This document shows positions 2,619 through 45,542 of a stretch of DNA of 45,542 nucleotides, piece by piece. The notes beneath the pieces are model-generated. The model saw nothing but the letters and a program-made list of their open reading frames with translations, had not been told where the DNA came from and did no database searches. The stretch is from assembly GCA_035764005.1 (NCBI GenBank), contig DASTZZ010000062.1:1-45542 (forward strand), written 5' to 3'. The stretch comes from Terriglobales bacterium. GTDB taxonomy: Bacteria; Acidobacteriota; Terriglobia; Terriglobales; Acidobacteriaceae. Each line of letters begins with the position of its first letter. Positions within the stretch are counted from its first letter, which is position 1. Position numbers and translations under genes: made by a program.

Positions 2619-3173
2619 TCACTCGGCATTCAGAGAATCGGTATAGATCAGGTACTTCTGCCGGACACGCATGAGTTGTTGCAGCTTCGGCTGATAGTCC
2701 TGGGCAATACACCGTGGATCTTTGCCGGACTTAAGCTCCGCCACGGTCGACTGATTCCCCAGCAGTTCGATCAAGCGATCCAACTCCCAATTCGCGGGAT
2801 AGAGCTTCAACAGCGCGGAGCCAAGTTCCAATCCAAGTTCCGGCGCATCGAGAACAGATCGGTCAGTCACGATCATCTGTAATCCGCCCACGCGCTGTCC
2901 GCCTAACCTGGCTGCGATCGCAACGTGCGATTGCCAACCTCGCGGAACCCTGGGTAGACTTTGGGGATTCGCATCCCAGCGCTCCCCAACTGCAGTTCCG
3001 CCCTGGGCTAGTTTATTTCGTGCCTGCGGCAGCGGCTTTGTGGCTCTGTCTTTCCGAAGCTGGACTTCCCGAATCGGGAAATTGGAGCTCGAAATAACAT
3101 CCATCTTCCCATCTGAAATCGAAAAAAGAATTGCTTGACCCGCGATGTAGTTGGGTATAGAGTCCCTGCCCAA
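2619..3173 (-). pseudogene. Decayed C-terminal fragment of NamZ-like (DUF1343) exo-beta-N-acetylmuramidase
   Basis: The last ~95 residues match the end of DUF1343/NamZ proteins, which release N-acetylmuramic acid from peptidoglycan chains: GGLQMIVTDRSVLDAPELG, then LGSALLKLYP, ELLGN, and near the end a VRQKYLIY segment, corresponding to the family's GVQ-I-VTDR, LYP, LLGN and R-x-YLLY motifs. The family is about 400 residues; here the catalytic N-terminal part is missing, and the first ~85 residues of the open frame resemble nothing in the family. No good ribosome binding site precedes it. Best read as a gene remnant. The frame also contains a perfect TTCCC-N5-GGGAA palindrome at 3066-3080. 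Confidence 0.65.
3066..3080. repeat. 15-bp palindrome TTCCC-N5-GGGAA, perfect arms (copy 1)
   Basis: Reads TTCCCGAATCGGGAA, which is palindromic apart from the central base. It is one of four copies with perfect arms in this window (the others are at 6366, 29121 and 43485). Confidence 0.7.
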
Positions 3174-3238
3174 CCCTACACTGTCATCCCTCGACGTAAC
3201 GGCCCTCGAACGATCTCTTGCCTCGAAAGGAGAACACC

Positions 3239-4516
3239 ATGTCTCACTCCAGCACTCTCTTCCAGCGCTATTCGGTATTGATGCTCTCGATCTTCCTCTG
3301 CATCGCCGCCTTCGCTCGGGCGGACGCTGTGACTGATTGGAACGTGATTGCTGTCAATACTGCAATCGCGAACGGTCAAAGTCCATTTGCTCAAGCACGC
3401 TTTGCAGCAATCGCTCAACTTGCCGTCTTTGAAGCTGTCAACTCCATCCGCGGAGACTACCAGCCATATCTCGGCACCATCCAGGCTCCCGCGGGCGCTT
3501 CAGTCGACGCGGCGGCAATCCAAGCTGCGTATCGCGTGCTTAGGACGTACTTCCCTAACAGCGCAGCGACGCTCGACATGCAGCGCGCCAACTCACTGGC
3601 AGCAATCGCAGACGACCAAGCCAAGACCGACGGCATCGCCACTGGCGAAGCCACCGCTTTGGCGATGATTGCGCTGCGCGCTAACGACGGCTCGTCGCCT
3701 CCGCAATTCAAGATTCCCGGAGCGCCACTTCCGGGTGAGTGGCAGGCCACTCCGAGTTGTCCAATAGTCAACGGAGTTGCCGTCGGGCAGTTTCTTCACT
3801 GGCAGAATGTAACTCCATTCGGCGTCACCAGTGCTGGGGCATTTCTACTGGATCCGCCACCGGCTCTTACCAGCAACGAGTATGCAAAAGCCTATAACGA
3901 GGTGATGACGGTCGGAAACGCTACTAGCACTGAGCGCCCACAGGATCGGTCTAACGTCGCGATCTTCTACGCAGCCTCGTCACCAACCTATGTAATCAAC
4001 CAGGCTGCCCGGCAGGTTGCGCAGGAACAGGGGCGTTCGATGTCGGAAAATGCTCGGGCTCTGGCACTGATCAATATGGCGGTGAGCGATAGCCTGGTGG
4101 CATCCTTCCTCAACAAGTACCACTACAACTTCTGGCGTCCCGAAACGGCAATTCATCTCGGCGGCACAGACGACAATGCGAAAACCGATCCTGACACCAC
4201 ATATAAGCCGTTTATCCTCACGCCGTGCTTCCCCAGTTATCCCTCGAACCACGGCAGCGGCACTGGCGGAGGAGTCGAGGTCCTAAGACGTCTTTATGGT
4301 GAGGCAGGCCATTCGATCACGATCTCGAATCCCGCGGTCCCGAACATCGTCTTTCAATACACGACGTTCAAGCAGATCGCCGACGATATTTCCGACGCCC
4401 GTATTTATGGCGGAATTCATTTCCGATTCGACCAGGAGGCAGGCTCCGACCTTGGGCGCGCGATCGGCACCGCAGTATATAAAGACAACTTGCGTCGAGT
4501 GCACGATGACGAATGA
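3239..4516 (+). CDS. Exported vanadium-dependent haloperoxidase-like protein (PAP2 superfamily)
   Basis: A 425-residue protein with a signal peptide (hydrophobic 12-25, cleavage near ARA-DA). The vanadate/phosphate-binding residues of the haloperoxidase/PAP2 superfamily are visible: K293 and R300 in KYHYNFWRPETAI, the PSYPSNHGSGTGG segment with acid-base His338, and R388/H394 in SDARIYGGIHFRFD. Family members oxidise halides with peroxide, or act as acid phosphatases; halide specificity cannot be read from sequence. ATG 3239 follows AGGAGAACACC, so it is preferred to an upstream in-frame start at 3218. Flanking genes are unrelated, and it is probably transcribed alone. Export to periplasm or outside is inferred from the signal peptide. 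Confidence 0.88.
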   Translation: MSHSSTLFQRYSVLMLSIFLCIAAFARADAVTDWNVIAVNTAIANGQSPFAQARFAAIAQLAVFEAVNSIRGDYQPYLGTIQAPAGASVDAAAIQAAYRVLRTYFPNSAATLDMQRANSLAAIADDQAKTDGIATGEATALAMIALRANDGSSPPQFKIPGAPLPGEWQATPSCPIVNGVAVGQFLHWQNVTPFGVTSAGAFLLDPPPALTSNEYAKAYNEVMTVGNATSTERPQDRSNVAIFYAASSPTYVINQAARQVAQEQGRSMSENARALALINMAVSDSLVASFLNKYHYNFWRPETAIHLGGTDDNAKTDPDTTYKPFILTPCFPSYPSNHGSGTGGGVEVLRRLYGEAGHSITISNPAVPNIVFQYTTFKQIADDISDARIYGGIHFRFDQEAGSDLGRAIGTAVYKDNLRRVHDDE

Positions 4517-6335: not shown

Positions 6336-6421
6336 AATTTCTTCGCACGTTCCAGACGGAACGTCTTCCCGGTACGGGAATAAATTGAGAATACGTTCCG
6401 TCTGGAAGCTGTGAAGAAATT
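6336..6421. repeat. 86-bp imperfect inverted repeat (large hairpin) overlapping the left IS end
   Basis: Arms 6336-6364 and 6393-6421 (29 bp each) pair with three mismatches around a 28-nt loop. The loop contains a second palindrome, TTCCC-GGTAC-GGGAA (6366-6380). The outer 18 bp of the right arm are the IS1182 terminal repeat, and the outer 18 bp of the left arm are a degenerate copy of it in inverted orientation. The inner arms (AGACGGAACGT / ACGTTCCGTCT) are perfect. Confidence 0.85.
6366..6380. repeat. 15-bp palindrome TTCCC-N5-GGGAA, perfect arms (copy 2)
   Basis: Reads TTCCCGGTACGGGAA and forms the tip of the 6336-6421 hairpin. Same motif as at 3066, 29121 and 43485. Confidence 0.7.
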
Positions 6422-8229: not shown

Positions 8230-9966
8230 ATGTCAGCCCTAGCCGAATGGTCGCCGAAGTCTGTCCTTTTATTAAGGACGTACACGCTCCGCACCTTCCT
8301 TTCTGATCTCCTCGCCGGAATTACAGTTGGACTCGTTGCCTTGCCATTGGCAATGGCATTCGCGATTGCTTCAGGAATGTCGCCGCAGGCCGGTCTTTAC
8401 ACAGCTGTTTTTGCGGGGTTCCTGATTTCTGCGCTCGGCGGATCGAGCACCCAGATCGGCGGTCCGACCGGAGCCTTCGTCATCGTCGTTGCCGGAATTG
8501 TTGCAAATCACGGCGTCTCCGGCCTTTTCATCTGTACGCTGCTCGCCGGACTCATGCTCATCTTTATGGGAGCGACTGGGCTGGGATCTGCTGTTCGTTT
8601 CATCCCGCGGCCGGTTGTGGTGGGATTCACCAATGGCATTGCGATTCTGATCACGAGCACACAAATCAAAGACTTTTTTGGGTTGCGGATAGCCTCCGTT
8701 CCCGGCGACTTCCTGGGCCGCATGCATGCGATCGCGGTCAATTTCCGCTCGATTTCGCTCTCGGCGACGTTGTTGTCGCTCATTTCACTCGCGCTCATCA
8801 TCCTGACTGCCCAATATGTGAAGCGGATTCCAGGCTACATAGTCGCGCTTTTTGTCGGGACTGCGTTGGCGTTGATTTTTAGACTGCCGCTGGAGACGAT
8901 CGGCACCCGCTTTGGCGGCATCCCGTCTGGATTACCGCACTTGGCTATTCCACATCTCAAATTGAGCCTGGTTCGGCCTTTGATCTCGCCTGCAATTACG
9001 GTCGCTATGCTCGGCGCCATCGAATCGCTTATGTCAGCCGTGGTTTCCGACCGCATGAGCGGCGACCGGCACAATCCCAATGTGGAATTGATTGCGCAGG
9101 GAATTGCAAACCTGACCTCGCCACTCGTTGGAGGTCTGCCCGCAACCGGCGCGATTGCACGTACCGCAACCAACATTCGCTCTGGCGCAAAGACTCCTGT
9201 TTCGGGAATGGTGCATGCGCTCACATTGCTGAGCATTCTTCTGTTCGCCGCGCCGTTGGCGAAGTTCGTTCCGCTTTGTGTCCTTGGCGCCATCCTGATG
9301 GTCGTGTCGTACAACATGGGCGAGTGGCGCGAAATTCCGGAACTGCTGCGGTTGAGCAAGCTCGAGATTGCAGTCTGGCTCATTACTCTGCTGCTCACGG
9401 TATTCGCCGATCTAACTGTGGCCGTCGAAGCAGGCATGATGCTGGCAATCTTGATCTATTTGCGCAACGTCACGTCGACTACGACCGTCTCGGAAGTCAC
9501 GGCAGAGTATTTGGAAGATGGTCGCGTCCATATCCTGCAGGACAAGCAGATTCCTCCCTACGTGAGTATCTTCCGCATTCACGGTCCTTTTCTTTTTGGA
9601 GCCACTGACAAGATCAACGACGTAGTAGCACGGCTCGACCAGATGCCAGCAATCGTTGTCCTGCGTCTTCGCAATATGACTGCGCTCGACGCGACCGGGG
9701 TGCGCGCACTCGAGGAGTTTGCGGACGCGGTCCACGGTAGTGGTCGGCATTTGATCTTATGCGGTGCTTTGCCACAGCCGGCAAAACTCATGAAACAAGC
9801 AGAATTTGAGCAGCACGTGGGAGCACAGAATGTATGCGCAAATGTTACGGCGGCACTGGCGCGAGCGCAGGAATTATTCGCGAAGATGTCGCCGGAAGAT
9901 CAGTCGATGAATTTGCGCAGGCGTAAGACGGATCCTGTTGAAAGTGCCTCTGCAGCCACTGTCTAG
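8230..9966 (+). CDS. SulP family anion transporter with C-terminal STAS domain
   Basis: A 578-residue inner-membrane transporter. Residues ~20-420 form many hydrophobic helices. The SulP signature is visible: LAGITVGLVALPLAMAFAIASG with PQAGLYTAVFAGFL, then GPTGAFVIVVAG (anion-binding GPT region), and FTNGIAILI. The C-terminal STAS domain (about 430-555) includes VVLRLRNMTALDATGVRALEEF. Substrate (sulfate, bicarbonate or other anion) cannot be assigned, and no carbonic anhydrase gene is adjacent. The start is ATG 8230 with only a weak upstream site. The IS1182 right end lies 111 bp upstream, so the native promoter may have been displaced or replaced. Confidence 0.92.
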   Translation: MSALAEWSPKSVLLLRTYTLRTFLSDLLAGITVGLVALPLAMAFAIASGMSPQAGLYTAVFAGFLISALGGSSTQIGGPTGAFVIVVAGIVANHGVSGLFICTLLAGLMLIFMGATGLGSAVRFIPRPVVVGFTNGIAILITSTQIKDFFGLRIASVPGDFLGRMHAIAVNFRSISLSATLLSLISLALIILTAQYVKRIPGYIVALFVGTALALIFRLPLETIGTRFGGIPSGLPHLAIPHLKLSLVRPLISPAITVAMLGAIESLMSAVVSDRMSGDRHNPNVELIAQGIANLTSPLVGGLPATGAIARTATNIRSGAKTPVSGMVHALTLLSILLFAAPLAKFVPLCVLGAILMVVSYNMGEWREIPELLRLSKLEIAVWLITLLLTVFADLTVAVEAGMMLAILIYLRNVTSTTTVSEVTAEYLEDGRVHILQDKQIPPYVSIFRIHGPFLFGATDKINDVVARLDQMPAIVVLRLRNMTALDATGVRALEEFADAVHGSGRHLILCGALPQPAKLMKQAEFEQHVGAQNVCANVTAALARAQELFAKMSPEDQSMNLRRRKTDPVESASAATV

Positions 9967-10953: not shown

Positions 10954-11249
10954 CAAGTTATAGGAGGGGTAAAACCTGGTGACGACGGGACGTTCCCAAA
11001 AACTACGGCAAAGGCTTGGACTATTTTCGCCCGCGGAGGTTCAGGCACCCATAATCCAGCGAGAATGGCGGATCGTCTTCTGCAGCCTGCGCTGTAAGAA
11101 ATCCGGCGACGAAATCCGGTAACCAGTCTCTCCCGTTTTCCCAAATGCGGAATCAAAAACTTACAAATCGCGCTATGCCTGTTACTTGTTGATTCCTGAT
11201 TCGGGAATCATTTATCTCTGACAGGTCGCAGGCCGTTCCCCTTTCGCCA

Positions 11250-14207
11250 TCACCTGACGATCAACGTGACTGGCATACTTACCGGTTGTACGCTTGAATT
11301 GGAGCTGGTAGCGGTCATTGTGATCGTGTAGGTTCCGGGTGGCGTTCCGGGCGTTGCGGGTGGTGGTGGTGGCGGAGCAGAACCTCCGCCGCAGCTGATG
11401 CAGAGCAGCGCGGCGAATGCGCCAATCGCAAAGAACCTCCGTGGAATGTGCCTCCTGGCTCTGTTCCCGTGAGCAGGCAGAACCATTGCCAGCAGGCAGA
11501 CAGCCCACACCGGCCAAGCATGGCCGCCGAAGTTATCCAAGGGAGACCCGAGCGTCGGCCCAGGCGCCAATTGGGCACGAGCGGCGGTGGTAGTCACGGT
11601 CATCGTCGAAGAGTTGCCGGAACTCGGGTTCGGGCTGAAACTTGCCGTAGCCGATGCCGGCAATCCGGTAACACTAAAGGTCAAATTATCGACGAAACCT
11701 GCACTCCGCGAAATTGTTACGGTGTAAGTCGTGAGGGAGCCGGCGGAGACAATCTGAGAAGGAGGCGTGGCGGCCAGACTAAAAAGTGGGCCCCCGGGCG
11801 TAACCGTAAAGCTGGCAGCGCTGGTCGTGGTCCCATCCAGCGTTGTGACCGTGATGGGACCCGTGGTACTCCCGAAGGGAACTGTCGTCGTGACCGTCCC
11901 GGAGTTGCTCACCGTGAATGTAGCCACCCTTCCACCAAAAAAAACGCCTCTGGCCCCAGTTAAGTTCGTGCCGGTAATCGTGACACCCGTTCCAGCCGGA
12001 CCGTTGGCCGGTGTAAAGGACACGATGGCTGGCGTAACCGTAAAGCGCGTCGTGGTTTTCAAAGGCCCGCTGCCAGGCGTGGTGACCGTGATGGGGCCTG
12101 TGGTGGCCCCGCCGGGAACTGTCGTCGCGATTGTTCCGGAGGGGCTGACTGTGAACGTAGACGCCACTCCGTTAAACGAAACAGCTGTGGCTCCGGTGAA
12201 GGCCGTGCCGGTAATCGTCACACCCGTTCCAACGGGACCGAAAGTCGGGGTAAACGGGCTGAAGCTGATGCCTTCCAGGAAGGCGATGATGTCGTCGGTG
12301 GCGGTGGGCCCAATCGCCGCAGTATTGATCTGGCCGGAAAACGCCGCACCTGGCGAGGTGTTGAAGAAAGACGAGTTATAAAACGCGAGCACATCTTGCA
12401 ATGTGGCTGCGGAGCCGTCGTGGAAGAACGGACCCAGGTTGGCGATGTTGAAAAGCTGGCGGACGACGAACGCACGCGACCCGCAGGGTGTGCCCTCGCA
12501 GGGAAGGTTGTCGACTCCAGCCGAGTTGATGGTCTGGTTCACCACACCAGTGTCGAATAGCGCTCCATCGGTGAGAACCGTCCCGCTGTGGCAAAACGAG
12601 CACTCGGCCGCGCCGAAAAAATCATTAAAGCCTCGCTGTTGCGCGGCCGTGACCACGAACCGGCTTAAATTGAACTTGTTCGGATCGTTTCCTGCCGGGA
12701 ACTCCTGCGCACGCATGAACGCTTCCAGGGCGGCCAACTCATCAGATGTCGGCAGCCGGAAATCTGGGGCCGATCCACCGCTGTTCCGAGCCAGCGTCCG
12801 CGGGAAGTGCTGGATGATGGCTCCCGTCGCGAACGATTGCAGATCGCTGAAGTTGCCGCCGAGTCCAAACGGGCCAAATCTTTCGCTCAGGTTCAGTAGG
12901 TGGGGAGACTTGCGGAACACGGGCGCGGTCGTCGTTGGGGAAAAGCCATCGATGTTTTCCAGAATGAGGCCACGGCCTTGAGGGAAGTTCAGCGTATCCA
13001 GGCTCGTCCTCATCCGCTTCGGATCTTCCAGGCCGAGCACAGACGAACCTGAGATAGCGCCGAGACTTCCTGCGGTGATGCTCGCGACGGTTCCCGTACA
13101 CGAGTTGCTGTCGCTCACTGTGCCGGACAAGGCCGGGTTCATGCCGCCGTAGACAAGATAGGTGGTCGGTGAAACCTGCGTCAGCACCTTGGCTGTCGCT
13201 CCGCTTCCACTCGTTAGCATGCCCTGCAACGTTCCAATGCATGGCGCCGCGCTCGACACCGTGTCGCTCAGAACCAGCGTGTTGAGATTGAAGTCATAGC
13301 CGGCATCGAAGCTGGACGGCTTCATCTCGCCGACAAACAGCGGATCAAACGTCGTGGAGACGGTATTGAATCGCGACTGGATATTGCTCGGCGTCAGCGC
13401 GAAATTCAGGCTCGCTATGTGACAAGTTGCGCAGGTCCGCCCATTGCCCTGAAACGTCTCGAAGTTGAAAAGGTTCCCGCCCTGGTCGACTTGGGTTGCT
13501 ACCGGGATGGTGAGCGTCTGTCCCGCATCGTTCGTCGGTGTAGGTGTCGTATTGATGGCGAAATCGGAGTTAGGGACGGAACCGCAAGAGGTAGAGGTGC
13601 GTTTCAGGCTGACCGTATTCATGATGGGAAGGGCGGCCGCCGGAGGACCTGCTACAACAGCGCCGTTGCAGCCGCCGGAGTCAGTTCCCGTTTGGGCAGC
13701 AGGAAAGCTCCCGTAAGCAACGCAGTCGGTTCGAGAAGACGCGTTGGGGTTCAACGGATTGTTCGTGAAGCACACCATCCCACCAATCGGGTTGAGGAGC
13801 GGCGGCATAATGAAATCGGGAGTCGGTGCTCCAGTCAGGTTGGCAAAGTCCTGGGTCGCAATCAACTGCGGGTGAGTATCAGCGGGCACATCGTGCGGGA
13901 ATCTGAACTTGCCAGTTTCTCTTCCCGCAGCGTCGAAAAACTGTAGCATCACCCTCGATTGAGTCTCGGTAGCCTGCGGGCCCCATAAGTTGCCGCCCCC
14001 CTCCTGCTGGATAACGATAAATTGGACTTTGGAGTTGCCATTGACGCCGGCCATGATCTCCTGAATATGGTTCTGTTCATCGCTCGCAACAGCGCGACTC
14101 GGAGACAGCAGAAGAACCAAGCCGATCGCCAGGGTATAGGCGAATTGCAGATTCGTGTTCCGGTTAGTCAAGTCTTTGGCCTGCCATTTTCCGTGTTCGT
14201 CATACAT
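11250..14207 (-). CDS. Exported di-heme cytochrome c peroxidase-like (MauG-type) protein with TIG/Ig repeats and CGGG tail
   Basis: A 985-residue exported protein from ATG 14207 (AAGGA 7 nt upstream); frames open further (to 14342) would put ~45 extra residues before the signal peptide (21-42). Two heme c sites are seen: CATCH (259-263) and CSFCH (536-540). After the second, LFNIANLGPFFHDGSAATLQD is typical of MauG/cytochrome c peroxidases. Then come two TIG (IPT) repeats (about 650-723 and 728-803, each starting FTP-x-x-GP-x-GTGVTITG) and an Ig-like region (808-875). The tail is hydrophobic helix, RARRHIPRR, second hydrophobic helix, C939GGG, proline run, and a last Ig-like strand segment. 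Probable cell-surface oxidoreductase; substrate unknown. The gene stands alone on the minus strand. Confidence 0.85.
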   Translation of the reverse strand: MYDEHGKWQAKDLTNRNTNLQFAYTLAIGLVLLLSPSRAVASDEQNHIQEIMAGVNGNSKVQFIVIQQEGGGNLWGPQATETQSRVMLQFFDAAGRETGKFRFPHDVPADTHPQLIATQDFANLTGAPTPDFIMPPLLNPIGGMVCFTNNPLNPNASSRTDCVAYGSFPAAQTGTDSGGCNGAVVAGPPAAALPIMNTVSLKRTSTSCGSVPNSDFAINTTPTPTNDAGQTLTIPVATQVDQGGNLFNFETFQGNGRTCATCHIASLNFALTPSNIQSRFNTVSTTFDPLFVGEMKPSSFDAGYDFNLNTLVLSDTVSSAAPCIGTLQGMLTSGSGATAKVLTQVSPTTYLVYGGMNPALSGTVSDSNSCTGTVASITAGSLGAISGSSVLGLEDPKRMRTSLDTLNFPQGRGLILENIDGFSPTTTAPVFRKSPHLLNLSERFGPFGLGGNFSDLQSFATGAIIQHFPRTLARNSGGSAPDFRLPTSDELAALEAFMRAQEFPAGNDPNKFNLSRFVVTAAQQRGFNDFFGAAECSFCHSGTVLTDGALFDTGVVNQTINSAGVDNLPCEGTPCGSRAFVVRQLFNIANLGPFFHDGSAATLQDVLAFYNSSFFNTSPGAAFSGQINTAAIGPTATDDIIAFLEGISFSPFTPTFGPVGTGVTITGTAFTGATAVSFNGVASTFTVSPSGTIATTVPGGATTGPITVTTPGSGPLKTTTRFTVTPAIVSFTPANGPAGTGVTITGTNLTGARGVFFGGRVATFTVSNSGTVTTTVPFGSTTGPITVTTLDGTTTSAASFTVTPGGPLFSLAATPPSQIVSAGSLTTYTVTISRSAGFVDNLTFSVTGLPASATASFSPNPSSGNSSTMTVTTTAARAQLAPGPTLGSPLDNFGGHAWPVWAVCLLAMVLPAHGNRARRHIPRRFFAIGAFAALLCISCGGGSAPPPPPPATPGTPPGTYTITMTATSSNSSVQPVSMPVTLIVR

Positions 14208-14879
14208 GGCAGATCCTTGCAACCGGGACTTCCATTTGCTTGAGTGATCTTTAGCGTTAGGGGGAATGCTGCCGGAAGTCGAGCCGCTTATTTCCGTCGG
14301 CGTGAGTGTGAACATACTCGTCACTCCATCTTTATCCTCCAACGAGCGCGGTGACTGGCTTTAGCTTGTAGTTCATGGCAAGTTAAGTTTGCTTTCATGT
14401 CCTACTGAAAGCCCGGTTTCCGCAGACACGTTTGAGGACTTAGTCTTTCCCGAAGCAGTACGAGTCATATGCACTTGCGCGGAAGAGACAAGCGAGCGAC
14501 CTTTTACCATATTGGAAAGCGCTAGTCGATAACTAGAAAGTAATTAGCTGCGAGATCAATACGACAAATGCGGGACAGGGTGTGGCAAGAAGAAGCTGCT
14601 AAGCCTCTAGCTCCTGGCTATTAGCTAAACACAGATTTTTCGCAATCTATGCCTGCTCTTTGTAATGTCAACGGAAGTTAGCGTCGGTTACGCGTGGATC
14701 GACAGTGCGGGCGGCTGTCCGACTATTCCTAATTTGGAACCCGCGTGGGTGGCTCCGTTCATCGCGATTTTCCGTCACTGGGATGCTCTTCGTTGAGAGT
14801 TCCAAATTGTTGACGAGGACCCGTCTTCGTCTCGAATGGAACACAGTGAACCTGCCGGCGCTCGCCAATCAATCATTTC
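14208..14879. other. Gene-free spacer upstream of the cytochrome gene
   Basis: The first 135 bp (to 14342) stay open in the cytochrome frame and could be N-terminal coding if an upstream start is used. Beyond that no gene is supported. Open frames between 14668 and 14983 are Arg-rich and show no known fold. An AGCT-rich repeat sits at 14591-14628. The cytochrome promoter presumably lies here; no clear -35/-10 pair is seen. Confidence 0.5.
14591..14628. repeat. AGCT-rich dispersed repeat, copy B
   Basis: Contains AAGCTGCTAAGCCTCTAGCT, then CCTGGCTATTAGCT. In reverse complement, the copy at 40488-40524 matches it along most of its length, so the two are copies of one ~36-bp repeat rather than chance. 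Confidence 0.7.
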
Positions 14880-28366: not shown

Positions 28367-29245
28367 ATGAACAGAAAGCAAGTGTCGGCAGCCTCGGCCG
28401 GACAGGTTTCGCTCGGACGCGAGCTGCGCGTCCATCGCCTCGGATACGGAGCCATGCGTCTCACCGGCGAGGGCATCTGGGGAGCTCCGCGCGACCGGAA
28501 TCAGGCTCTTGCGGTTTTGCGGCGCGCCATCGAGCTCGAAGTCAACTTTATCGATACTGCCGATTCGTATGGCCCGAACGTGAGCGAAGAGCTCATCGCG
28601 GAAGCGTTTTTCCCGTATCCCAAGGGGCTGGTCATCGCGACCAAGGGCGGCTGGCTGCGCCCTGGTCCGAATCAATGGACGCACAACGCTACTCCCACGC
28701 ACCTGCGCAAAGCCGTAGAAGGCAGTCTGAAACGATTGCGAGTCGAGCGTATCGATGTATACCAATTGCACATACCCGACCCAATCGTCTCGTTGGAAGC
28801 TTCGATGGCGACGCTCGCTGATCTGCGCGAGCAGGGGAAGATTCGTGAAGTGGCGCTATCAAACGTGACGCAAGAGCACATCGAGCGCGCACGCAAGATC
28901 GTGCCCATCGTCTCCGTCCAGAACCGCTATAGCTTTGCCGATCGCGAGTGGGACTACGTCGTCGATTATTGTGAGAAGAACGGCATCGCATTCATCCCGT
29001 GGTTCCCGCTGGGCGCGGGCAAGGTCGCCGGTGACGCGCTTAATAAAGTTGCAAAGCAGCACCAGGCAAGGCCGATGCAGATCGCCCTTGCGTGGCTTCT
29101 GCGGCGCTCTCCAGTGATGCTTCCCATTCCGGGAACAAGCTCGATTGAACATCTGGAAGAGAACGTGGCGGCAGCTTCCGTGCACCTGACCCAAGCAGAA
29201 TTCGAGAGCCTTGCAGGCGTACCGCAGTTGGTTGCGACAAGATAA
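28367..29245 (+). CDS. Aldo/keto reductase
   Basis: A 292-residue NADPH-dependent oxidoreductase of the (beta/alpha)8 type. The catalytic tetrad is present: D63 in FIDTADSYG, Y68, K93 in VIATKGGW, and H135 in YQLHIPDP. The C-terminal nucleotide-binding region includes PIPGTSSIEHLEENVAA. Family members reduce aldehydes and ketones, and the substrate is not predicted. The gene contains a perfect TTCCC-N5-GGGAA palindrome at 29121-29135, which encodes LPIPGT. Single gene, between the disulfide relay and a convergent phosphoesterase gene; no strong ribosome binding site. Confidence 0.93.
   Translation: MNRKQVSAASAGQVSLGRELRVHRLGYGAMRLTGEGIWGAPRDRNQALAVLRRAIELEVNFIDTADSYGPNVSEELIAEAFFPYPKGLVIATKGGWLRPGPNQWTHNATPTHLRKAVEGSLKRLRVERIDVYQLHIPDPIVSLEASMATLADLREQGKIREVALSNVTQEHIERARKIVPIVSVQNRYSFADREWDYVVDYCEKNGIAFIPWFPLGAGKVAGDALNKVAKQHQARPMQIALAWLLRRSPVMLPIPGTSSIEHLEENVAAASVHLTQAEFESLAGVPQLVATR
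29121..29135. repeat. 15-bp palindrome TTCCC-N5-GGGAA, perfect arms (copy 3)
   Basis: Reads TTCCCATTCCGGGAA, inside the aldo/keto reductase gene. Confidence 0.65.
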
Positions 29246-33236: not shown

Positions 33237-36200
33237 GGTTCTGGTCCGAGGATTTCCAGTATGCCCACAATGGGAATTCGCGCCCACTCCGGACGGTTTT
33301 GCAGATCGGAGAGCACTTCAATCATTCCACGCTCCAGCAGGTAGGCGTCGAGCAGGATGCGGAGTTCATCCCCGCCGATGTTCAGCAGTTGTGTTACTCC
33401 CTGCGTGCTCAGATAGCCGTGCAGATACGTGGCTCCGACCCAGCGATACCAGAATCCGGCCCAGCGATGCAGTTGCGCCGCCGATTCTTTTTGGGGAATG
33501 ATGCCCGGAACTTTTCCATAGAGCACTGCATGTGCGGCATAGTGGAACGAACGCAACATGCCGGCTACATCGCGCAACGGCGAGTACTTGATGCGGCGTT
33601 CTCCGATCGACCGCCGCGGATCCCCTTCAAAATCGATGAAGACAAAATCCTTGCCGGTGAAGAGCACCTGGCCGAGATGCATGTCGCCGTGAATGCGAGT
33701 GCGAATCGTGGGGATACGGTGATCGCGCAGCGGCTTGAGCCGGGCGCGCAATTCATTTTCTCGGTTGAGCAACTGCTCGGCGTCGCCGCGAATATCGTCT
33801 GGCAGATGACGGACGGTGCTGCGCAGTCGCGTGAAGCATCGCGTGGCATGTCCGAGCATGCCGTGGTAAAGACCCTGGCGATAGAAGTCGGTGAAGGGCT
33901 CGGGGGTGAAAGCCGCATCGTCATGATTGCGAGCAAGCGCAATGAGCAACTCGCCGGTGCGCTGTCCGAGCAAACGAGACATTTGCTGAAACGACCCGAC
34001 TAAGTCACACACGACCTGCGGTGCATTCTCTCGTTCCAGATCCATCGGCGTGCCCGACTTAACTTGTGCGAGTCGCGGATCATCCTGCGCGGCCAACGCT
34101 CGTTCGAGGAATAATCCAAGATTATCGAGTGCGTAGTTCCATCCGTTCGCCTGATGCGGGATGTAGGACTCGAGGATCGCCGCAGTCGTCACATCTCCCA
34201 GGCTATTGCGATATTCGATGTGTCCGGCAAGATGCGGAGCATTGTTGAAGCCTTCCGCCGTGAGCCATTGCAGAATCTCCTGCTCGGGATTCGGTCCCGA
34301 TTCGAGACGACGGTAGACCTTCATCATCAGACGATCACCGAAGAAGATTCCCGTATTGTTCTGCGGCGAAGGCCGCGGAACTGAGGCCTCGAGACTGGGT
34401 CGCTCCGTCCCGAGGATGCGACGCAGCGAGCGCGTGTGTGAACCGGCGAGTTCGCCGCGATGAGTACGTACACGACGACGCCGCGAGATCATGCCCAGCA
34501 AGGCATCAGGGAAGCGGCGATCGCGGAAGGCGCTATACAGCAGGCCCTTGGTGCCATCGGCAGATTCAAGGTGCGCGAGGATGAAATCGGCAAGATTCGC
34601 GGCAACCTGTTCCGTTTCGGTTCCGTGGGCAACCGAGAGGGGAAGCTGGTAGATCTCAGGCTCGCCTTCGTCGAACTCGACCCTGATCAGCACCAGATAA
34701 GAGTTCGTGTCGGGGACGTGCACCACATCGGCGAGCTCGGTAGTGCGGATGCGCCGATTGCGGCTCAGGAACCACGGACGGCCGCGTAGAAAAGATGGCA
34801 GTAAGCGTGAGAGCGCCGATTCAACTGGACCAGCGAACACCGATTCCCATGACCCGGCACGAATCGGGCGATCGCGATGCTCACCGAAGCGCGAGCCGGT
34901 CGCAGCTTCTCCGACATTCTGCTGCGGTTCCAAAATGAACCAGTAGAACGCATGTGGTCCCAGCGTTATGAGGTAGGGACGTTCGCCGATAGGAGGAAAC
35001 TCGGTGCCGCCAAACATCTCGACCAGCTTGAATCCCGAGAAGGTGTGCAGATCGAGTTCTGCAGCCTGCACAAAACGCGACAGGTTTGCCACGATCAAAA
35101 TTCGCTCATTCTCGTACTGACGAATGAAGGCAAGCACGCGGCGATTTTCCGGTGTGAAAAACTCCAGCGAGCCGCGTCCAAAGGCTTTCGAGCGCTTGCG
35201 CTGAGCAAGGATGCGGCGCGTCCACCAGAGCAGGGAATTGGCGTTGTTTTGCTGCGCCTCGACGTTCACCGACTCGTACTGATACTCGGGATCGATGATC
35301 ACAGGCAGATACAGCTTCTGCGGATTCGCGTGTGAGAAGCCCGCATTGCGATCCGAGCTCCACTGCATGGGAGTGCGGACGCCATTACGATCGCCAAGAT
35401 AGAAGTTATCGCCCATGCCGATTTCGTCGCCGTAGTAGATAACGGGCGTGCCGGGCAGCGAGAGCAGCAACGCATTCATCAGCTCGATCTTGCGGCGATC
35501 GTTGCCGAGCAGCGGGGCCAGCCGCCGCCGTATGCCGAGATTGATGCGCATGGGACGATCCTCGGCGTACATGCGATACATGTAATCGCGTTCTTCGTCC
35601 GTCACCATCTCCAGGGTGAGCTCGTCGTGGTTGCGCAGAAAGAGCGCCCACTGACAGTTCTCAGGAATGGCGGGCGTGAGTTGGAGAATGTCGGTGATCG
35701 GGTAACGATCTTCCATGCGCAGCGCCATGAACAGACGCGGCATGACAGGGAAGTGGAAGGCCATGTGGCATTCGTCGCCATTCCCAAAATAGGCAATCGC
35801 GTCCTCCGGCCACTGGTTAGCTTCGGCCAGGATCATTCGATCGTGGTACTTCTCATCGATGTGCTTGCGAATTTCTCTCAGGAACTCGTGCGTCTCGGGC
35901 AGGTTTTCGCAGTTTGTGCCTTCGCGTTCGTATAGATATGGGACAGCATCGAGACGCAGGCCATCGACTCCCATATCCAGCCAGAAGTCCATTGCCTGCA
36001 GCATGGCTTTTCGCACCGGTGGGTAGTCATAGTTCAGATCGGGCTGATGAGCGAAGAAGCGATGCCAGTAGTAACTCTTCGCGATCGGGTCGTACGTCCA
36101 GTTCGATGGCTCGAAATCTTTGAAGATGATGCGCGCTTCTTTGTACTTCTCCGGCGTGTCACTCCACACGTAGAAATTGCGCCAATGCGAGCCGGGCTTA

Positions 36201-38351: not shown

Positions 38352-38357
38352 CGAAAC

Positions 38358-40524: not shown

Positions 40525-40564
40525 ATTTATGGTTACTTTCGAAGGAGCAGTTTCCTCCCGAACT

Positions 40565-43264
40565 ATGCTCAAACGAATCGGATTGTATTTTCTCCTGGTC
40601 CTTGCCTCCGTCCTACGCTTCTTCGGCGCCGATTTTGCCATGAAGGTGACCGACAAGAATTATCTCGACACCCAAGGTTTCAGCGTCTTTCTCTACGACA
40701 GCACGTACCATCCAGTTTTCGTAGACCAAAAGAACACGGCGATGGAGATGATTCTCCACGGCCAGCGCATCGCTACTAACGGGGACGTGCGCCTGATGCC
40801 AACGCCCGAGCAGTGGGACCTCGTGGCAACGCTCAAAGGACGCCACGCCGACAAGGAGAACAACCGGCTCACCGCCGACCTCGCGTTCCCGACCTTCGAT
40901 TTGAGCTACACGCTGGAAGTTGCAGCGGAACCAGGCGGGGTGAAGGTCAGCATCAATCTCGACAAACCGCTACCGCAGAAGCTCGCCGGACGAGCGGGCT
41001 TCAATTTGGAATTCCTCCCCTCGATCTACATGGGCAAGGCTTACCTGGTGGACGGAACAAAGGCCGGCATCTTCCCGCGAACCCCCAACGATCCGATGGT
41101 CAAGGTATTGCCGCTAGCTGATGAACCGAAGAAGGCGTACTACCTGGAGGATTGGGACAAAGCCAAGGGATACATGCAGCCTTTGCCGTTCGCCGAGGGC
41201 AAAAGTATCACGCTGGGAGTCGACGACGCGCTAGCTCGGGTGAACGTTACGTCGGAGACGGCCGATCTCATGCTGTTCGATGGGCGCGACCGTGCGCAGA
41301 ACGGATGGTTTGTGCTGCGCTCGCTGATTCCTACTGGCAAGACCACCGACGCGATCGTGTGGCACATCCGGCCGGACGTGATTCCGAACTGGACGCGGCC
41401 TCCGATGATCGCGCACAGCCAGGTCGGATATGCGCCGGGTTTCTCCAAGGTGGCGATCCTCGAACTCGACCCCAAGTACAACGCGCCGAAAACGGCAAAA
41501 GTGCTGCGCCTGATGGAAGACGGATCGTACAAGCAGGTGTTTGAAGGTCCGATCACGCCGTCAACGCCGTGGCTGCGCTACGTGTATTCGAAGTTCGATT
41601 TCACTCCGGTCAACGACCCGGGCCTGTATGTAATTGAGTACGCCGACCAGCGCACCGCGCCGTTTCCGATCTCCAGAGATGCCTACGCGAATATTTGGCA
41701 GGACAGCCTCGACCATCACCTTGCCGAGCAGATGGATCACGTCTCCGTCCGCGAAGGCTATCGCATGTGGCACGGCAAGTCGCACCTCGACGATGGCCGC
41801 ATGGCGCCCGTGGTCGGTGAACAATTCGACGGCTGGAATCAAGCCACGGCAACGGACGGGAAATATAAAGGCGGCGATCACATTCCTGGAATGAACGTGG
41901 GCGGCTGGTACGACGCCGGCGACTTCGACCTCGAAGAGCCTGCAGAGCTAAGCGTGATTCAGAATCTGGCTCTCGCGTATCGCGAATTCAATCTCAAGTA
42001 CGACGAGCTTACGGTGGACGAAACCGCGCGTGAGGTTGAGATGCACCGTCCCGACGGCGTTCCCGATACGGTACAGCAAGTCAAGCACGGCGCATTGCTC
42101 ATTCTGGCGCAGTTCCACAACATAGGCCACGCGATCCGTGGCACGCACGAACCCGATCTGCGCCAGTACACGCAGGTGGGTGACGGAGCGTCGAAGACCG
42201 ACGGCCGCATCTACGACCCGAAGCTCGGTCCCAACGAAGTGAAGGGCGACTACTCCGGCAAGCCCGATGACCGCTGGATATTCACTTCGAACAATCCGTT
42301 CTTCCAGTGGAATGCCATCGCCGCACTGGCTGCGGCAGCGGACACGCTGAAAGGATGGGACGATGCGATGGCGAAAGACTGCCTCGATACCGCGATCAAA
42401 GCATGGAACGACGAGAAGGCTCACCCGACGCAGAATCCTGCGAGAGGCGGCTTAGGCGGAGCGTCTCCAGCCGGCGCTCCCGGAGGCGGCGTGCTCGCTG
42501 CCTCGCAGGGAGTGGTGTCTGGCGCACAAGGCGGTCGTAACACACGCGGCACCTCGGGCGCTCCCACAACTTCGAATAGCGCACAGCCATCCCCTCCCGC
42601 CGGCTTCCGCCGTGGCGGCTTCGGCCCACTGGATTGGGCCGCGGCTTTGGAGCTGACCATTGCCACCAATGGCGCGGAGCCCTACAAATCCCGCCTGAAG
42701 GAATTGTTCCCTCAAATGATCACCCCCGAGCAGATCGGTATCCGCGGTTGGACGGCCGTTCGAGCATTGCCTTATCTGGACGCGAGCGAAAAAGATCAAC
42801 TGCGCGAAGCGGTCAAGACATATATGGCGGGTCTAGATAAGGAGTTGGAGGCCACCCCGTTCGGCGTGCCTCCAAGCCTGGGCACTTGGGGGGGATCCGG
42901 CGCCGTGGTTGACATGGCCATCCGCATGTACTTCCTGAACAAGACGTTTCCCGATCTTGTGGGCTCTGAATACACACTTCGCGCCGTCAATTACATTCTC
43001 GGCACGCACCCGGTATCCAGCACGTCATATGTCGCCGGCGTCGGTACAGTCTCGAAAACGAAGACGTACAGCAACAACCGCGCCGACAACTCTTACATTC
43101 CGGGCGCCGTAATCCCTGGATACATCATCATCAAACCGGATTTCCCCGAGTGCATCGACGACTTCGGATTCCTCTGGTTCGAAGACGAAGCCGTCGTAGC
43201 CGGCTCGGCGAACTGGGTGGTAGCCGGCAACGCCGCGGACGCGATTATCAACGAGGCGAAGTAG
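40565..43264 (+). CDS. Exported GH9-family glycoside hydrolase (cellulase-type)
   Basis: About 899 residues. A signal-like N-terminus (MLKRIGLYFLLVLASVLRFFG) is followed by a ~250-residue beta-rich region, a cellulase N-terminal Ig-like domain (IAHSQVGYAPGFSKVAILELD) and a GH9 (alpha/alpha)6 barrel. The catalytic Asp pair is D450/D453 in GGWYDAGDFD, and the general acid is probably E873 or E875 in WFEDEAVVAG. A 60-residue Gly/Pro/Ser-rich insert (about 623-686) interrupts the barrel. GH9 enzymes cut beta-1,4-glucans or act on glucosamine/cellobiose ends; substrate unproved. MLKR at 40565 is preferred because it starts the signal peptide. Convergent with the GH31 gene, 66 bp apart. Confidence 0.9.
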   Translation: MLKRIGLYFLLVLASVLRFFGADFAMKVTDKNYLDTQGFSVFLYDSTYHPVFVDQKNTAMEMILHGQRIATNGDVRLMPTPEQWDLVATLKGRHADKENNRLTADLAFPTFDLSYTLEVAAEPGGVKVSINLDKPLPQKLAGRAGFNLEFLPSIYMGKAYLVDGTKAGIFPRTPNDPMVKVLPLADEPKKAYYLEDWDKAKGYMQPLPFAEGKSITLGVDDALARVNVTSETADLMLFDGRDRAQNGWFVLRSLIPTGKTTDAIVWHIRPDVIPNWTRPPMIAHSQVGYAPGFSKVAILELDPKYNAPKTAKVLRLMEDGSYKQVFEGPITPSTPWLRYVYSKFDFTPVNDPGLYVIEYADQRTAPFPISRDAYANIWQDSLDHHLAEQMDHVSVREGYRMWHGKSHLDDGRMAPVVGEQFDGWNQATATDGKYKGGDHIPGMNVGGWYDAGDFDLEEPAELSVIQNLALAYREFNLKYDELTVDETAREVEMHRPDGVPDTVQQVKHGALLILAQFHNIGHAIRGTHEPDLRQYTQVGDGASKTDGRIYDPKLGPNEVKGDYSGKPDDRWIFTSNNPFFQWNAIAALAAAADTLKGWDDAMAKDCLDTAIKAWNDEKAHPTQNPARGGLGGASPAGAPGGGVLAASQGVVSGAQGGRNTRGTSGAPTTSNSAQPSPPAGFRRGGFGPLDWAAALELTIATNGAEPYKSRLKELFPQMITPEQIGIRGWTAVRALPYLDASEKDQLREAVKTYMAGLDKELEATPFGVPPSLGTWGGSGAVVDMAIRMYFLNKTFPDLVGSEYTLRAVNYILGTHPVSSTSYVAGVGTVSKTKTYSNNRADNSYIPGAVIPGYIIIKPDFPECIDDFGFLWFEDEAVVAGSANWVVAGNAADAIINEAK

Positions 43265-43330
43265 GCATTCCTTCCTCTGTGTCCTGTTGTTGTCGGTATT
43301 GCTTTTCTGCTGCCGCGGAGCGCTTCGCTT

Positions 43331-45542
43331 TTACGGTGCGGGCGTTTGCGAGACGGCGAAGCACGTTTCCTGCTTACCTCCCGGCGCTCCGCAGGTAAGC
43401 CTCAGTTCCGCTCCCTGTGCGGGGTTGCGAAATTGCAGTGTAAGCGTCTGGGCTGATGCATTGAAGGTCGTCCCGGAAACAGGCTTCCCGTTTAGGGAAA
43501 TACTTTTCGGCTGCTGCTTGACGCCGTAGATGACAGCTTGTATTTGCGTGAACCAGGGCACGAATGTGCCTTTTTGCGGAGAGATCTTGACTCGCAAAGC
43601 GTCTTGGTAGCCCTCGCAGGAATAGTCCACTCGCAGGTATTTGCCTTTGGTGTAGTCGAAGCTGAGGCCGTCGTCCAGGTACAGCGAGCCCTGGCAGGTG
43701 CGGTCGGGATAGACCCGGAGTTCGAGCGGTCCTCGCGGTTTCTCGGCGGTGTCCTGCACTAAAGGCTGGCGGGGAATGATTGCTCCGCCGCGCACATAGA
43801 CGTGCAGCGTATCGAGCGCGGGCTGCACTTTGATTTCTCCTGGACGAAGCTGCTTGCCTGTCCAGTAGTCGTACCAGAGATTTCCGCCAGGCAACATGAT
43901 GCGGTACTTCTGGACGAACTCGTAGGGCTCAGGAGCGACTAGCAGATCATGTCCGAAAAGATACTGACTGTTGGCCCAGTCACCTTCTATGACTAGTGGT
44001 TCCTGGTCGGGATATTCGAGGAACATTGGACGCATGAGTGGGATGCCGTCGCGTGTGGCTTCTTCGATGCTGGTGTAAATGTATGGCAGCAAGCGATAGC
44101 GCTCTTCGATGTAGCGCTTACGGATCGCCTCGTGTTGCGGCCCATGCACCCAGGGCTCCTGATCGGCGCTGCCTTTTTCTGTGTGATCGCGGTCGATGGG
44201 ATTGAATGCTCCCAGCTCGAGCCACTTGGTTAAAAGATCCGGCTGAGGGCTGCCTTTGTAGCCGCCGATGTCGGCTCCCACAATGGGAAATCCGCTGATT
44301 CCCAGGTTTTGCAGCATGGGAACGGAGATGCGCATGTGGTTCCATGTGCTCGAATTGTCGCCGGTCCAGGTGGCGGCGTAGCGCTGGCCGCCGACGTAAG
44401 TTGCGCGTGTTAGCACAAACGGACGCTCGTTGGGGCGGAGCTTCAGCAACCCGTCGTGCGTGGCCTCGGAGTTCAGCATGCCGAGCACGTTATGGATTTC
44501 GCGCTGTGTTGTTGTGCGTGGGGGCTGGCCGGGCTCTTCGATGCGATCGATGGCGTCGATGCGAATGGTTTTGCTTGGTACTTCGAAGACGGCGGGCTCG
44601 TTCATGTCGTTCCAGAATCCGGAGACGCCGTCTTTGACGAACTCGGCGTAAAGATTGCCCCACCAGTCGCGTACGGCTTTGCGTGTGAAATCAGGAAAGA
44701 CGCTTTCGCCGGGCCACACTTTGCCGACGTAGTCTGTGCCATCAGGGTTCTTGATGAAGGCGTCGATGGCTTTGCCGGAATCGTACGGTGCGTATCCGGG
44801 TTCCTGCTTGATGTGGAGGTCGGTGATGGCGATGGTGTGCACGCCTTCTTTCAGAAAGTCCTGAACCATGCCGGCGAAATTTGGGAATCTCTGCGGATCG
44901 ACGGTGAAAACGCGGTTCCCGCGTTGATAGTCGATGTCGGTGTAAATCACGTCGAGCGGGATCTTCTTCTGTTTGAACGTCTGCACGATCTCGCGCACTC
45001 TCGATTCGGGAAAGTAGCTGTAGCGGCACTGCTGGAAGCCGAGGCTCCAGAGTGGAGGCAGTGGGGCGCGTCCGACGAGCGCGGTGAAGGTGCTGACTAC
45101 TTGCTTGGGACGCGGTCCGTAGATGAAGTAGTAATCGACTTCGCCGCCGGCGGCTCCGAACGAATATTCGTCGGGCGATTCTTTGCCGAGGTCCCAGTGC
45201 TGGCGGAAGGTGCTGTCGAGAAAGATGCCGTAGCTCGTCCCTTTGCGCAGCGTGAGCAGGAAGCCGAGCGTCTTATACAGAGGGTCAGTGGATTCCTGCC
45301 AGCCGTAGGCGTCGGTGTTCCACATCGTGAACGCCTGATTGCGATGGTCGAGCGGGCCGGCTTTGTCGCCGAGGCCGAAATAATGCTCGTCTTGGGGCAT
45401 CATGCGATGGACGGTGAACTCGTCGCCTCGCCATGTGATGGACGCGGAGTCGCCGGCGATGAATGCGCCGTCTGCTCCTAGAAAACTCACCGTGGAACTG
45501 CGGCGATCAACGCGGATGTGGAGCGCTGCGGTGTCGAGTTCG
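43331..45542 (-). CDS. GH31 alpha-glucosidase, N-terminus beyond window
   Basis: At least 736 residues; the frame stays open to the window edge (ELDTAALHIRVDRRSSTVSF), so the start lies outside. GH31 features: the catalytic nucleophile Asp in GFWNDMNEP (codon 44608-44606) and the acid/base Asp in ATWTGDNSSTW (44360-44358). TreS/MalQ elsewhere handle alpha-glucans, and this enzyme would release glucose or xylose from alpha-linked oligosaccharides; the branch is not resolved. The C-terminal beta-domain ends near 43331. It holds a perfect TTCCC-N5-GGGAA palindrome (43485-43499) and a related CCC-ACAAT-GGG motif (44277-44287). Confidence 0.93.
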   Translation of the reverse strand, partial: ELDTAALHIRVDRRSSTVSFLGADGAFIAGDSASITWRGDEFTVHRMMPQDEHYFGLGDKAGPLDHRNQAFTMWNTDAYGWQESTDPLYKTLGFLLTLRKGTSYGIFLDSTFRQHWDLGKESPDEYSFGAAGGEVDYYFIYGPRPKQVVSTFTALVGRAPLPPLWSLGFQQCRYSYFPESRVREIVQTFKQKKIPLDVIYTDIDYQRGNRVFTVDPQRFPNFAGMVQDFLKEGVHTIAITDLHIKQEPGYAPYDSGKAIDAFIKNPDGTDYVGKVWPGESVFPDFTRKAVRDWWGNLYAEFVKDGVSGFWNDMNEPAVFEVPSKTIRIDAIDRIEEPGQPPRTTTQREIHNVLGMLNSEATHDGLLKLRPNERPFVLTRATYVGGQRYAATWTGDNSSTWNHMRISVPMLQNLGISGFPIVGADIGGYKGSPQPDLLTKWLELGAFNPIDRDHTEKGSADQEPWVHGPQHEAIRKRYIEERYRLLPYIYTSIEEATRDGIPLMRPMFLEYPDQEPLVIEGDWANSQYLFGHDLLVAPEPYEFVQKYRIMLPGGNLWYDYWTGKQLRPGEIKVQPALDTLHVYVRGGAIIPRQPLVQDTAEKPRGPLELRVYPDRTCQGSLYLDDGLSFDYTKGKYLRVDYSCEGYQDALRVKISPQKGTFVPWFTQIQAVIYGVKQQPKSISLNGKPVSGTTFNASAQTLTLQFRNPAQGAELRLTCGAPGGKQETCFAVSQTPAP
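43485..43499. repeat. 15-bp palindrome TTCCC-N5-GGGAA, perfect arms (copy 4)
   Basis: Reads TTCCCGTTTAGGGAA, inside the GH31 gene. Confidence 0.65.

Follow-up and report, generated by a model that had tools for sequence, protein, structure and literature searches.

Cyanobacteria provide the best-known examples of iterated palindromes without a known use, and one published model for them invokes DNA methylases. As described by Elhai (2015, PMC4390886), HIP1 (GCGATCGC) and the alternate Highly Iterated Palindromes (HIPs) are cyanobacterial words that are short, palindromic, greatly overrepresented, genome-wide and lineage-specific, and that occur at about 1 per kb. In the present study, we analyzed a short two-sided word that occurs hundreds of times, in genes and between them, in the genome of an uncultured soil bacterium. 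In the parts of this genome that were read, the word is sparser than HIP1 (strict form, approximately 1 per 11–13 kb; relaxed form, approximately 1 per 3 kb). The word resembles HIPs without having all of their features. It is strongly overrepresented throughout the genome in genes and spacers; however, it is not a contiguous short GC-rich palindrome. Unlike HIP1, its arms are split by five bases, three of which are constrained (R, W, and Y), and its letters are graded and degenerate.

Other site sets also invite comparison. The matS/MatP, SlmA, and Noc sets likewise consist of short symmetric sites that lie both within and between genes; a dimer acting on the chromosome recognizes them, and matS has an R..Y center like that of the present palindrome. 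However, these sets number tens of sites, not hundreds, which counts against an architectural reading of the present word; here the sites are far more numerous, and the stretches read, that of parS among them, gave no sign that they cluster or are excluded. The DNA uptake sequences of Neisseria and Pasteurellaceae likewise reach hundreds of copies or more in coding and intergenic DNA and are commoner in native genes; in contrast, the present word is symmetric and interrupted. REP/BIME elements share palindromic arms with it and are found in the same genome, but REPs have long conserved bodies, whereas the flanks of the present word are unrelated. A PMC search with several spellings and broader terms found no paper on a TTCCC-N5-GGGAA-type motif, which does not prove its absence from print, and a PMC search for nucleoid-associated protein binding motifs in Acidobacteria yielded a paper on BarA-UvrY, which, judging from its title and opening lines, does not concern the palindrome.

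The palindrome in the window

The window, namely, the whole stretch of 45,542 nt analyzed, contains 12 sites with no more than one arm mismatch, whereas shuffled sequences averaged 1.36 and never exceeded 5. The initial annotation had proposed TTCCC-N5-GGGAA as a recurrent palindrome. Its four perfect sites (3066, 6366, 29121, and 43485) and four one-mismatch sites (11138, 11193, 21303, and 29387) were all recovered, and every other site that it named is present; however, 12491 and 20728, both within one mismatch, were missing from its list. Among its ACAAT variants, 33262 and 44275 are one-mismatch sites, whereas 31137 (AGCCC-ACAAT-GGGAA) has two arm mismatches, as does 5297 (TTCCC-ATTAT-GGGTT), for which two had been given. 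Its chance value of 0.04 perfect sites rests on equal base frequencies, and the dinucleotide shuffle covered only the search with up to one mismatch. There are five strict cores (TCCC-RNWNY-GGGA; at 3067, 6367, 29122, 29388, and 44276) among the ten relaxed cores (TNCC-RNWNY-GGNA) of the window. The sites, to which no strand is assigned, are as follows:

3066..3080: perfect TTCCC-GAATC-GGGAA; strict core TCCCGAATCGGGA at 3067-3079; between divergent genes
6366..6380: perfect TTCCC-GGTAC-GGGAA; strict core at 6367-6379; between convergent genes
29121..29135: perfect TTCCC-ATTCC-GGGAA; strict core at 29122-29134; within an aldo/keto reductase gene (28382-29245, + strand)
43485..43499: perfect arms, TTCCC-GTTTA-GGGAA; center lacks the Y, so that the core is missed; within a GH31 gene (43331-45490, - strand)
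29387..29401: TTCCC-GATTC-GGGAT; strict core at 29388-29400; within a metallophosphoesterase gene
44275..44289: CTCCC-ACAAT-GGGAA; strict core at 44276-44288; within the GH31 gene
4138..4150: relaxed core TCCCGAAACGGCA; PAP2 gene
9075..9087: relaxed core TCCCAATGTGGAA; sulfate permease gene
12581..12593: relaxed core TCCCGCTGTGGCA; gene for a 985-aa protein with no Pfam match
14505..14517: relaxed core TACCATATTGGAA; intergenic according to our home-made gene calls
42061..42073: relaxed core TCCCGATACGGTA; GH9-like gene
11138..11152: one-mismatch arms TTCCCAAATGCGGAA; no relaxed core
11193..11207: one-mismatch arms TTCCTGATTCGGGAA; no relaxed core
12491..12505: one-mismatch arms TGCCCTCGCAGGGAA; no relaxed core; may be a chance match
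20728..20742: one-mismatch arms TTCCCAAAACAGGAA; no relaxed core
21303..21317: one-mismatch arms TTCCTGAAATGGGAA; no relaxed core
33262..33276: one-mismatch arms TGCCCACAATGGGAA; lacks the leading T and has no relaxed core; gene with alpha-amylase and maltokinase-cap domains

Number, spacing, and letter profile

The 5.1-Mb genome contains 104 copies of TTCCC-N5-GGGAA and none of the reversed control; a count at the level expected from composition, which the initial annotation had named as its refutation, was not found. The proposed pattern is enriched, but differs slightly from the real one: the refined core, TCCC-RNWNY-GGGA, has 396 copies genome-wide versus 4 for the control, and the best form of the palindrome is TTCCC-RNWNY-GGGAA. 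By extrapolation, relaxed sites number more than a thousand in the genome. In the count in other Acidobacteriota that had been suggested, the host ranks highest of 297 genomes of the phylum for the strict core, and the runner-up has 54.

The spacing is strongly preferred. Among spacers 0 to 15, spacer 5 had 21 perfect sites and each other spacer 0–3, in 445 kb partly chosen because perfect sites lay there. With the shorter arms (TCCC-Nn-GGGA, n=0 to 13), 105 sites were found at n=5, and the 13 remaining lengths had 3 to 14 each. The base at the dyad is nearly always A or T, and those beside the arms are R and Y. Enrichment is graded over the central W, the flanking R and Y, and every arm letter, as in a protein site.

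Base-by-base reading covered 846 kb of 5.10 Mb, about 16–17% of the genome. Some stretches were non-random: C65:60001-100000 and C75:40001-60000 were chosen for their perfect sites and the window for the finding itself, and contigs C25 and C55 were likewise known beforehand to contain several sites. The 846-kb sample therefore has 34 perfect sites per Mb versus 20 genome-wide. When both picked stretches and the window were left out, the remaining 740 kb (five contigs taken as unbroken runs) had 23 perfect and 85 strict sites per Mb (genome-wide, 20 and 78), and the results were alike.

Genes, spacers, and sister species

In the 740 kb, genes contained 54 strict and 209 relaxed sites, compared with 1.6 and 28.9 after synonymous shuffles; synonymous codon choice keeps the palindrome, as the initial annotation had asked. 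Intergenic DNA contained 9 strict and 30 relaxed sites versus 0.30 and 4.3, a null based on base composition only, and a few of these stretches may contain genes because genes were called by a home-made caller. Over all 846 kb, the corresponding numbers were 67 versus 1.9 and 239 versus 33.7 in genes (synonymous shuffles), and 12 versus 0.4 and 35 versus 4.9 between genes (base composition). Relative to the corresponding null, genes and intergenic DNA are enriched to a similar degree. The binding or DNA-handling site proposed in the initial annotation is supported: the signal is a symmetric, graded one that acts at the level of DNA, extends genome-wide, and persists against synonymous-codon shuffles.

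The earlier claim that the copies cannot share a protein motif was not supported, since a preferred context exists: 53 of 75 genic copies lie in one codon phase. This phase is favored because the word can be accommodated at the lowest cost in [FILV]-P-x-x-G. The context is permissive and is not the cause of the palindrome; a protein motif or codon bias as the cause was rejected by the synonymous shuffles, despite the favored phase.

The sites are spread evenly over the 846 kb, including 120 kb of the parS contig; the assemblies of the genus are drafts. In 42 bins of 20 kb, counts were near Poisson (mean 6.5, variance 7.7). A search for dif gave one off-consensus match, which was not accepted. 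One ParB-like protein adjoins parS (by eye); the parS here (TTCCACGTGGAA) has TTCC in common with the palindrome, but its half-site spacing differs, and a ParB/Noc-type explanation, which this overlap had suggested, was provisionally set aside.

The palindrome is present across the genus. The letter profile in the sister species G001 has the same shape as in the host, and the R-W-Y center is also preferred in G002 and G005, so that three sister species have the same center preference. In 200-kb samples, G034 had only 5 strict sites (0.5 expected), while G033 and G055 had none, which is little informative since only 0.5 and 0.6 were expected by chance. In 150 kb of G002, TCCC-N3-GGGA was also raised (10, versus 16 at spacer 5), which counts against our best reading.

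Most sites are not at positions common to sister species. A first small comparison found 4 common sites (18 own, 15 in relatives), and one of two controls was common 5 times (5 own, 6 in relatives). With G001 alone and 14 controls, position sharing was 0.17 versus 0.16. With G001, G002, and G005 and 63 controls, it was 0.24 versus 0.09 (8 common, 40 own, 27 in relatives; strict core, 5, 13, and 7), although an own site aligned to two relatives may count twice.

Proposed docking sites and other candidate causes

We tentatively favor, at rather less than an even chance, weakly selected genome-wide docking sites for a symmetric DNA-binding protein, most likely a putative nucleoid-associated one. 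In this reading, TCCC-RNWNY-GGGA would be recognized by a symmetric DNA-binding dimer, which probably bends the site at its A/T-rich center. Weak diffuse selection, or transmission bias, may maintain the sites along the chromosome, rather than the needs of individual genes, and the likeliest user would be an abundant architectural protein. We consider it only slightly short of an even chance that a putative dimeric protein of this Acidobacteria genus uses spaced palindromes, numbering from hundreds to more than a thousand, to organize or mark the chromosome. Each palindrome would be close to neutral by itself but selected as part of the set, with density and specificity kept while most sites turn over between species. 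The comparable enrichment of the word in genes and spacers permits an estimate of the selection acting on each site, and provides a defined probe (TTCCCGAATCGGGAA) with which to isolate the binder. Should this prove to be a new nucleoid protein, its footprint would be readable directly from the genome.

Biased transmission, in which the word would tag the cell's own DNA for uptake or recombination and accumulate where proteins allow, is unlikely, but it explains several results. Sites occur in genes and spacers alike, most are not position-shared between species, and the perfect word is present in 14 of the 72 protein windows able to encode it (740 kb; an earlier value of 17 of 52 came from the biased 445 kb, of which this is the repeat). 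Moreover, site density climbs with gene typicality: genes with typical codon usage are richer in strict (1.77-fold, p=0.013) and relaxed sites (1.24-fold, p=0.050). This weighs against the architectural reading because a drive through uptake or gene conversion would give the same pattern. However, the graded dyad-symmetric profile with its degenerate center resembles a dimer site, and the uptake words known so far are contiguous and non-palindromic.

Somewhat less likely still, in our view, is that the many sites belong to the regulon of a global transcription factor, most of them being decoys inside genes. The profile resembles a transcription-factor logo, and some sites precede genes; 3066, for example, lies between divergent genes. 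However, the sites did not favor upstream positions in the 846 kb read, and a promoter regulon is not supported. Density was 0.26 per kb in divergent (11 sites in 42.3 kb), 0.19 in co-directional, and 0.25 in convergent spacers (7 in 28.2 kb), and the more than 30-fold enrichment at synonymous positions is unexpected for decoys. Close neighbors were no commoner than Poisson among sites from a fitted weight matrix that had drifted to a broad motif (803 sites, approximately 20% false positives) and was used for neighbor distances only. The 13 neighboring pairs within 200 bp, 12 of them genic, gave no lead to the gene of an autoregulated binder.

A methylase-linked HIP, arising by methylation-directed mismatch repair under the model that Elhai put forward for HIP1, is improbable. 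The word is palindromic, dispersed in genes and spacers, and lineage-specific, but it is degenerate, and unlike for HIP1, the three families searched yielded no candidate solitary methylase. PF01555 and PF00145 had no match at E<=0.001 in the genome (97.5% complete), and the sole match to PF02384, located close to a terminase gene, is a type ISP enzyme; the methylase that the initial annotation had suggested looking for did not emerge from these families. Among five other genomes of the genus, PF02384 matched in G004 only, and none of the three families matched in G003 or in G122 of the genus g30 (both less than 90% complete). A palindrome with protein-like, graded specificity and no likely methylase in the three families searched suggests that another cause of such words may exist.

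An RNA hairpin element in transcripts, with a 5-bp stem and 5-base loop, is very improbable. The arms are able to pair in RNA, but the evidence is against covariation that keeps pairing: two-arm changes that keep it numbered 44 versus 34.1 expected and those that do not 335 versus 214.4, and C>U changes, which retain a G-U pair, were not preferred over G>A changes, which do not (49 and 56). Divergent spacers are of similar density, and the loop letters R, W, and Y are constrained.

Dispersed copies of a small mobile repeat of the REP/BIME type have a negligible chance and are refuted for the sites read: the same genome carries at least two REP-like families, but no relationship is seen among the sequences that flank 79 strict sites (over 60 bases, 53% for the best pair and 26% on average), and the center differs from copy to copy. 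The strong dyads TAGGG/ATTCC, TGTCA/TTCCG, and TACCG/CGGTA represent REP-like families that are separate from the palindrome. In G288, which has 115 matches, the five sites listed (TTCCCCTNAGGGGAA) resemble a different repeat.

Form and placement of the palindrome

The initial annotation described a recurrent palindrome, TTCCC-N5-GGGAA, in the window. The four perfect sites are present, and 12 sites carry at most one arm mismatch, compared with a mean of 1.36 and a maximum of 5 in 100 shuffles. The following features lie beside the sites or in the same window:

Window 6529-7980, minus strand: DDE transposase gene adjoining the palindrome at 6366
Window 31692-45490: carbohydrate genes, namely 4-alpha-glucanotransferase (GH77), alpha-amylase with a maltokinase-cap domain, GH9-like and GH31
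Window 40353-40428: tRNA-Thr, among the carbohydrate genes

Perfect sites number 104 in the whole genome (5,101,813 bases, 131 contigs), and the reversed control is absent, which places the count above the level of composition. When spacers of 0 to 15 were pooled, the genome contained 204 palindromes and 20 controls. In the first 445 kb read, a spacer of 5 gave 21 perfect and 70 one-mismatch sites, whereas every other spacer from 0 to 15 gave 0 to 3 and 6 to 40, respectively. Spacer 4 ranked second because, on our reading of the list, the 14-bp form TTCC-N5-GGGAA also matches the true core.

The word was resolved further in 845,542 bases of this genome. Its arms are separated by five bases, three of which are constrained (R, W and Y), and it is thus not a contiguous word. 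The strict core, TCCC-RNWNY-GGGA, occurred 80 times against 2.2 expected from base composition. Only one copy was left when the flanking R/Y were swapped to Y/R, and C or G at the dyad gave 8 copies against 2.8 expected. With n=5, TCCC-Nn-GGGA had 105 copies, compared with 3 to 14 for every other n from 0 to 13. One-letter changes in the core reduced enrichment to a degree that depended on the letter, and an additional outer T per side increased it (TTCCC-RNWNY-GGGAA, 14 vs. 0.10). The relaxed core, TNCC-RNWNY-GGNA, had 275 copies against 27.7 expected in the own-genome sample. Dimeric DNA-binding proteins that recognise the centre of their site by indirect readout typically leave a profile of this sort, graded, two-fold symmetric and with A/T at the dyad. 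We infer from its profile that the word may be the mark of such a putative protein.

Synonymous codon choice preserves the word. In 346 genes, 17 perfect sites were observed against 0.7 after synonymous shuffles that kept the next base (maximum 3 in 100). Across all stretches, genes (649 genes, 678 kb; 15 shuffles) contained 67 strict and 239 relaxed sites against 1.9 and 33.7, and intergenic DNA (153.7 kb; base-composition null) contained 12 and 35 against 0.4 and 4.9. Some stretches were chosen for their perfect sites, and the counts were redone on five contigs as unbroken runs (740 kb). Genes (570; 30 shuffles) then had 54 strict sites against 1.6 (maximum 6) and 209 relaxed sites against 28.9 (maximum 37), or 34- and 7-fold; intergenic DNA had 9 against 0.30 and 30 against 4.3, or 30- and 7-fold. 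Enrichment over each region's null is much the same within and outside genes. The signal is one of DNA, and neither of protein nor of RNA.

It had also been claimed that the copies cannot share a protein motif. This is not supported, as the copies in genes share a preferred context: 53 of 75 sites fell in one codon phase because [FILV]-P-x-x-G hosts the word in that phase. The context is permissive and does not account for the enrichment, which survived the synonymous shuffles. The unbroken runs contained 72 protein windows that could encode the perfect word, and 14 of these carried it (1/1, 10/44 and 3/27 by phase). In the half of the genes with the more typical codon usage, strict sites were 1.77-fold (p=0.013) and relaxed sites 1.24-fold (p=0.050) commoner.

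Relaxed sites per kb of spacer were 0.26 in divergent, 0.19 in co-directional and 0.25 in convergent spacers. Site counts per 20-kb bin (42 bins) had a mean of 6.5 and a variance of 7.7, and distances between neighbouring fitted sites were near Poisson. One segment is probably the origin region, judging from its sequence:

G000:C31:113530-116680: three parS-like TTCCACGTGGAA words beside RsmG-, ParA- and ParB-like genes (identified by eye)
C31:114155: perfect palindrome at the end of the rsmG-like gene

The 120 kb of this contig that was read had 15 sites with at most one mismatch per 100 kb, compared with 14 to 28 in other stretches. The terminus was searched for in this genome and not located.

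Distribution and turnover among related genomes

In the family (398 genomes), perfect sites numbered 42 to 104 in the six genomes of the window's genus, and 51 and 37 in the two genomes of a second genus, g30. The remaining 390 had 0 to 28, except for G288 with 115. These 115 matches to the 15-bp pattern are probably a different repeat, since the five sites listed were TTCCCCTNAGGGGAA, another type. In a draw of 297 genomes of the phylum, with ours as the sole genus member, strict cores numbered 396 in our genome (control 4) and 54 in the next highest (control 20). Strict-core enrichment in samples was 27-fold in G002 and 28-fold in G005 (11 sites each), 11-fold in G001 (16 sites), all of the same genus, and 10-fold in G034 of g30 (5 sites). 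G033 and G055 had no strict sites in 200 kb each, with approximately 0.5 expected by chance. The full letter profiles of G001 and our genome are alike in shape, and the centre agreed in both G002 and G005, in which centre and spacer were examined. TCCC-N3-GGGA was also raised in G002 (10 vs. 3.8 expected, 150 kb). The nearest relative of one window protein in the scan, on record L097, showed 84% identity.

We aligned 126.9 kb at approximately 73% identity (94.5 kb of G001, 22.0 kb of G002 and 10.3 kb of G005). Eight relaxed sites were at shared positions (40 in our genome, 27 in the relatives), a fraction of 0.24, against 0.09 for 63 control palindromes of like build. With G001 only and 14 controls, the fractions were 0.17 and 0.16. 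Most sites therefore do not stay in position, although retention may be somewhat above that of the controls. The set keeps its density and specificity as its positions change, a pattern that favours diffuse selection or drive over sites that function individually.

Candidate explanations

As the likeliest of the explanations considered, we propose that the sites may form a docking set for a putative abundant architectural protein under very weak selection per site; this mechanism is plausible. By a hand-made estimate from the ratios, a site enriched approximately 35-fold at mutation equilibrium would need a 2Ns of only ~3.5 to 4.5, and a large soil population would thus need only very weak selection per site. 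Biased transmission, as with uptake sequences, would produce traces very similar to those of docking-site selection and is a less likely alternative.

A methylase-linked word is less likely still. Elhai's model of HIP1, the Highly Iterated Palindrome of cyanobacteria, requires a cognate methylase (PMC4390886). Three methyltransferase families (PF01555, PF00145 and PF02384) were searched in 19 genomes (E<=0.001), several of which are incomplete. The profile search gave no PF01555 or PF00145 match in our genome at this threshold, and the sole PF02384 match was an enzyme of 1,098 aa carrying type ISP specificity and coupler domains, with a terminase gene ~0.4 kb away:

G000:C17:81058-84354: type ISP restriction-modification enzyme
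G000:C17:84732-86408, opposite strand: phage terminase large subunit gene

No likely methylase for the word was thus found within these families. In the genus, both PF01555 and PF00145 were matched in G001. G002 had one PF00145 match that exceeded the family cut-off (G002:C323, E 5.1e-48) and spanned profile positions 2-165 of 324. One match to PF02384 was obtained in G004 and one to PF01555, below the cut-off, in G005; G003 had no match in the three families. In g30, G034 matched PF00145 and, weakly, PF02384, and none of the three families was matched in G122. As none of the three families searched is present in all carriers, several of these genomes being incomplete, the model is not supported here.

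An RNA hairpin was rejected, as pairing-keeping double changes (44 vs. 34.1 predicted) were not preferred over other two-arm changes (335 vs. 214.4) and C>U changes retaining a G-U pair (49) were not in excess of G>A changes without a pair (56), and so was a dispersed repeat, as the flanks of 79 strict sites showed no kinship.

Other repeats

A REP-like family, TGTCATTCCGA...hairpin...TGAGGAATCCCTA, was present on contigs C25, C55, C65, C31 and C69 of our genome; in the 845 kb sampled, one end had 45 matches and the other 33. Among the 30 matches listed per end, the ends often formed facing pairs ~100 bp apart. A second REP-like family around CACCCATYCGCTACCGCGRACGGTACTGAC was represented by TACCG-N4-CGGTA, which occurred 19 times in 845 kb (C25, C31, C69, C19 and others). 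In G055, from a different family of the class, the interrupted palindrome TGACCGC-N3-GCGGTCA (overlapping dyads) may be a REP; its dyad TGACC-N7-GGTCA occurred 15 times against 0.25 in G055:C1:1-200000.
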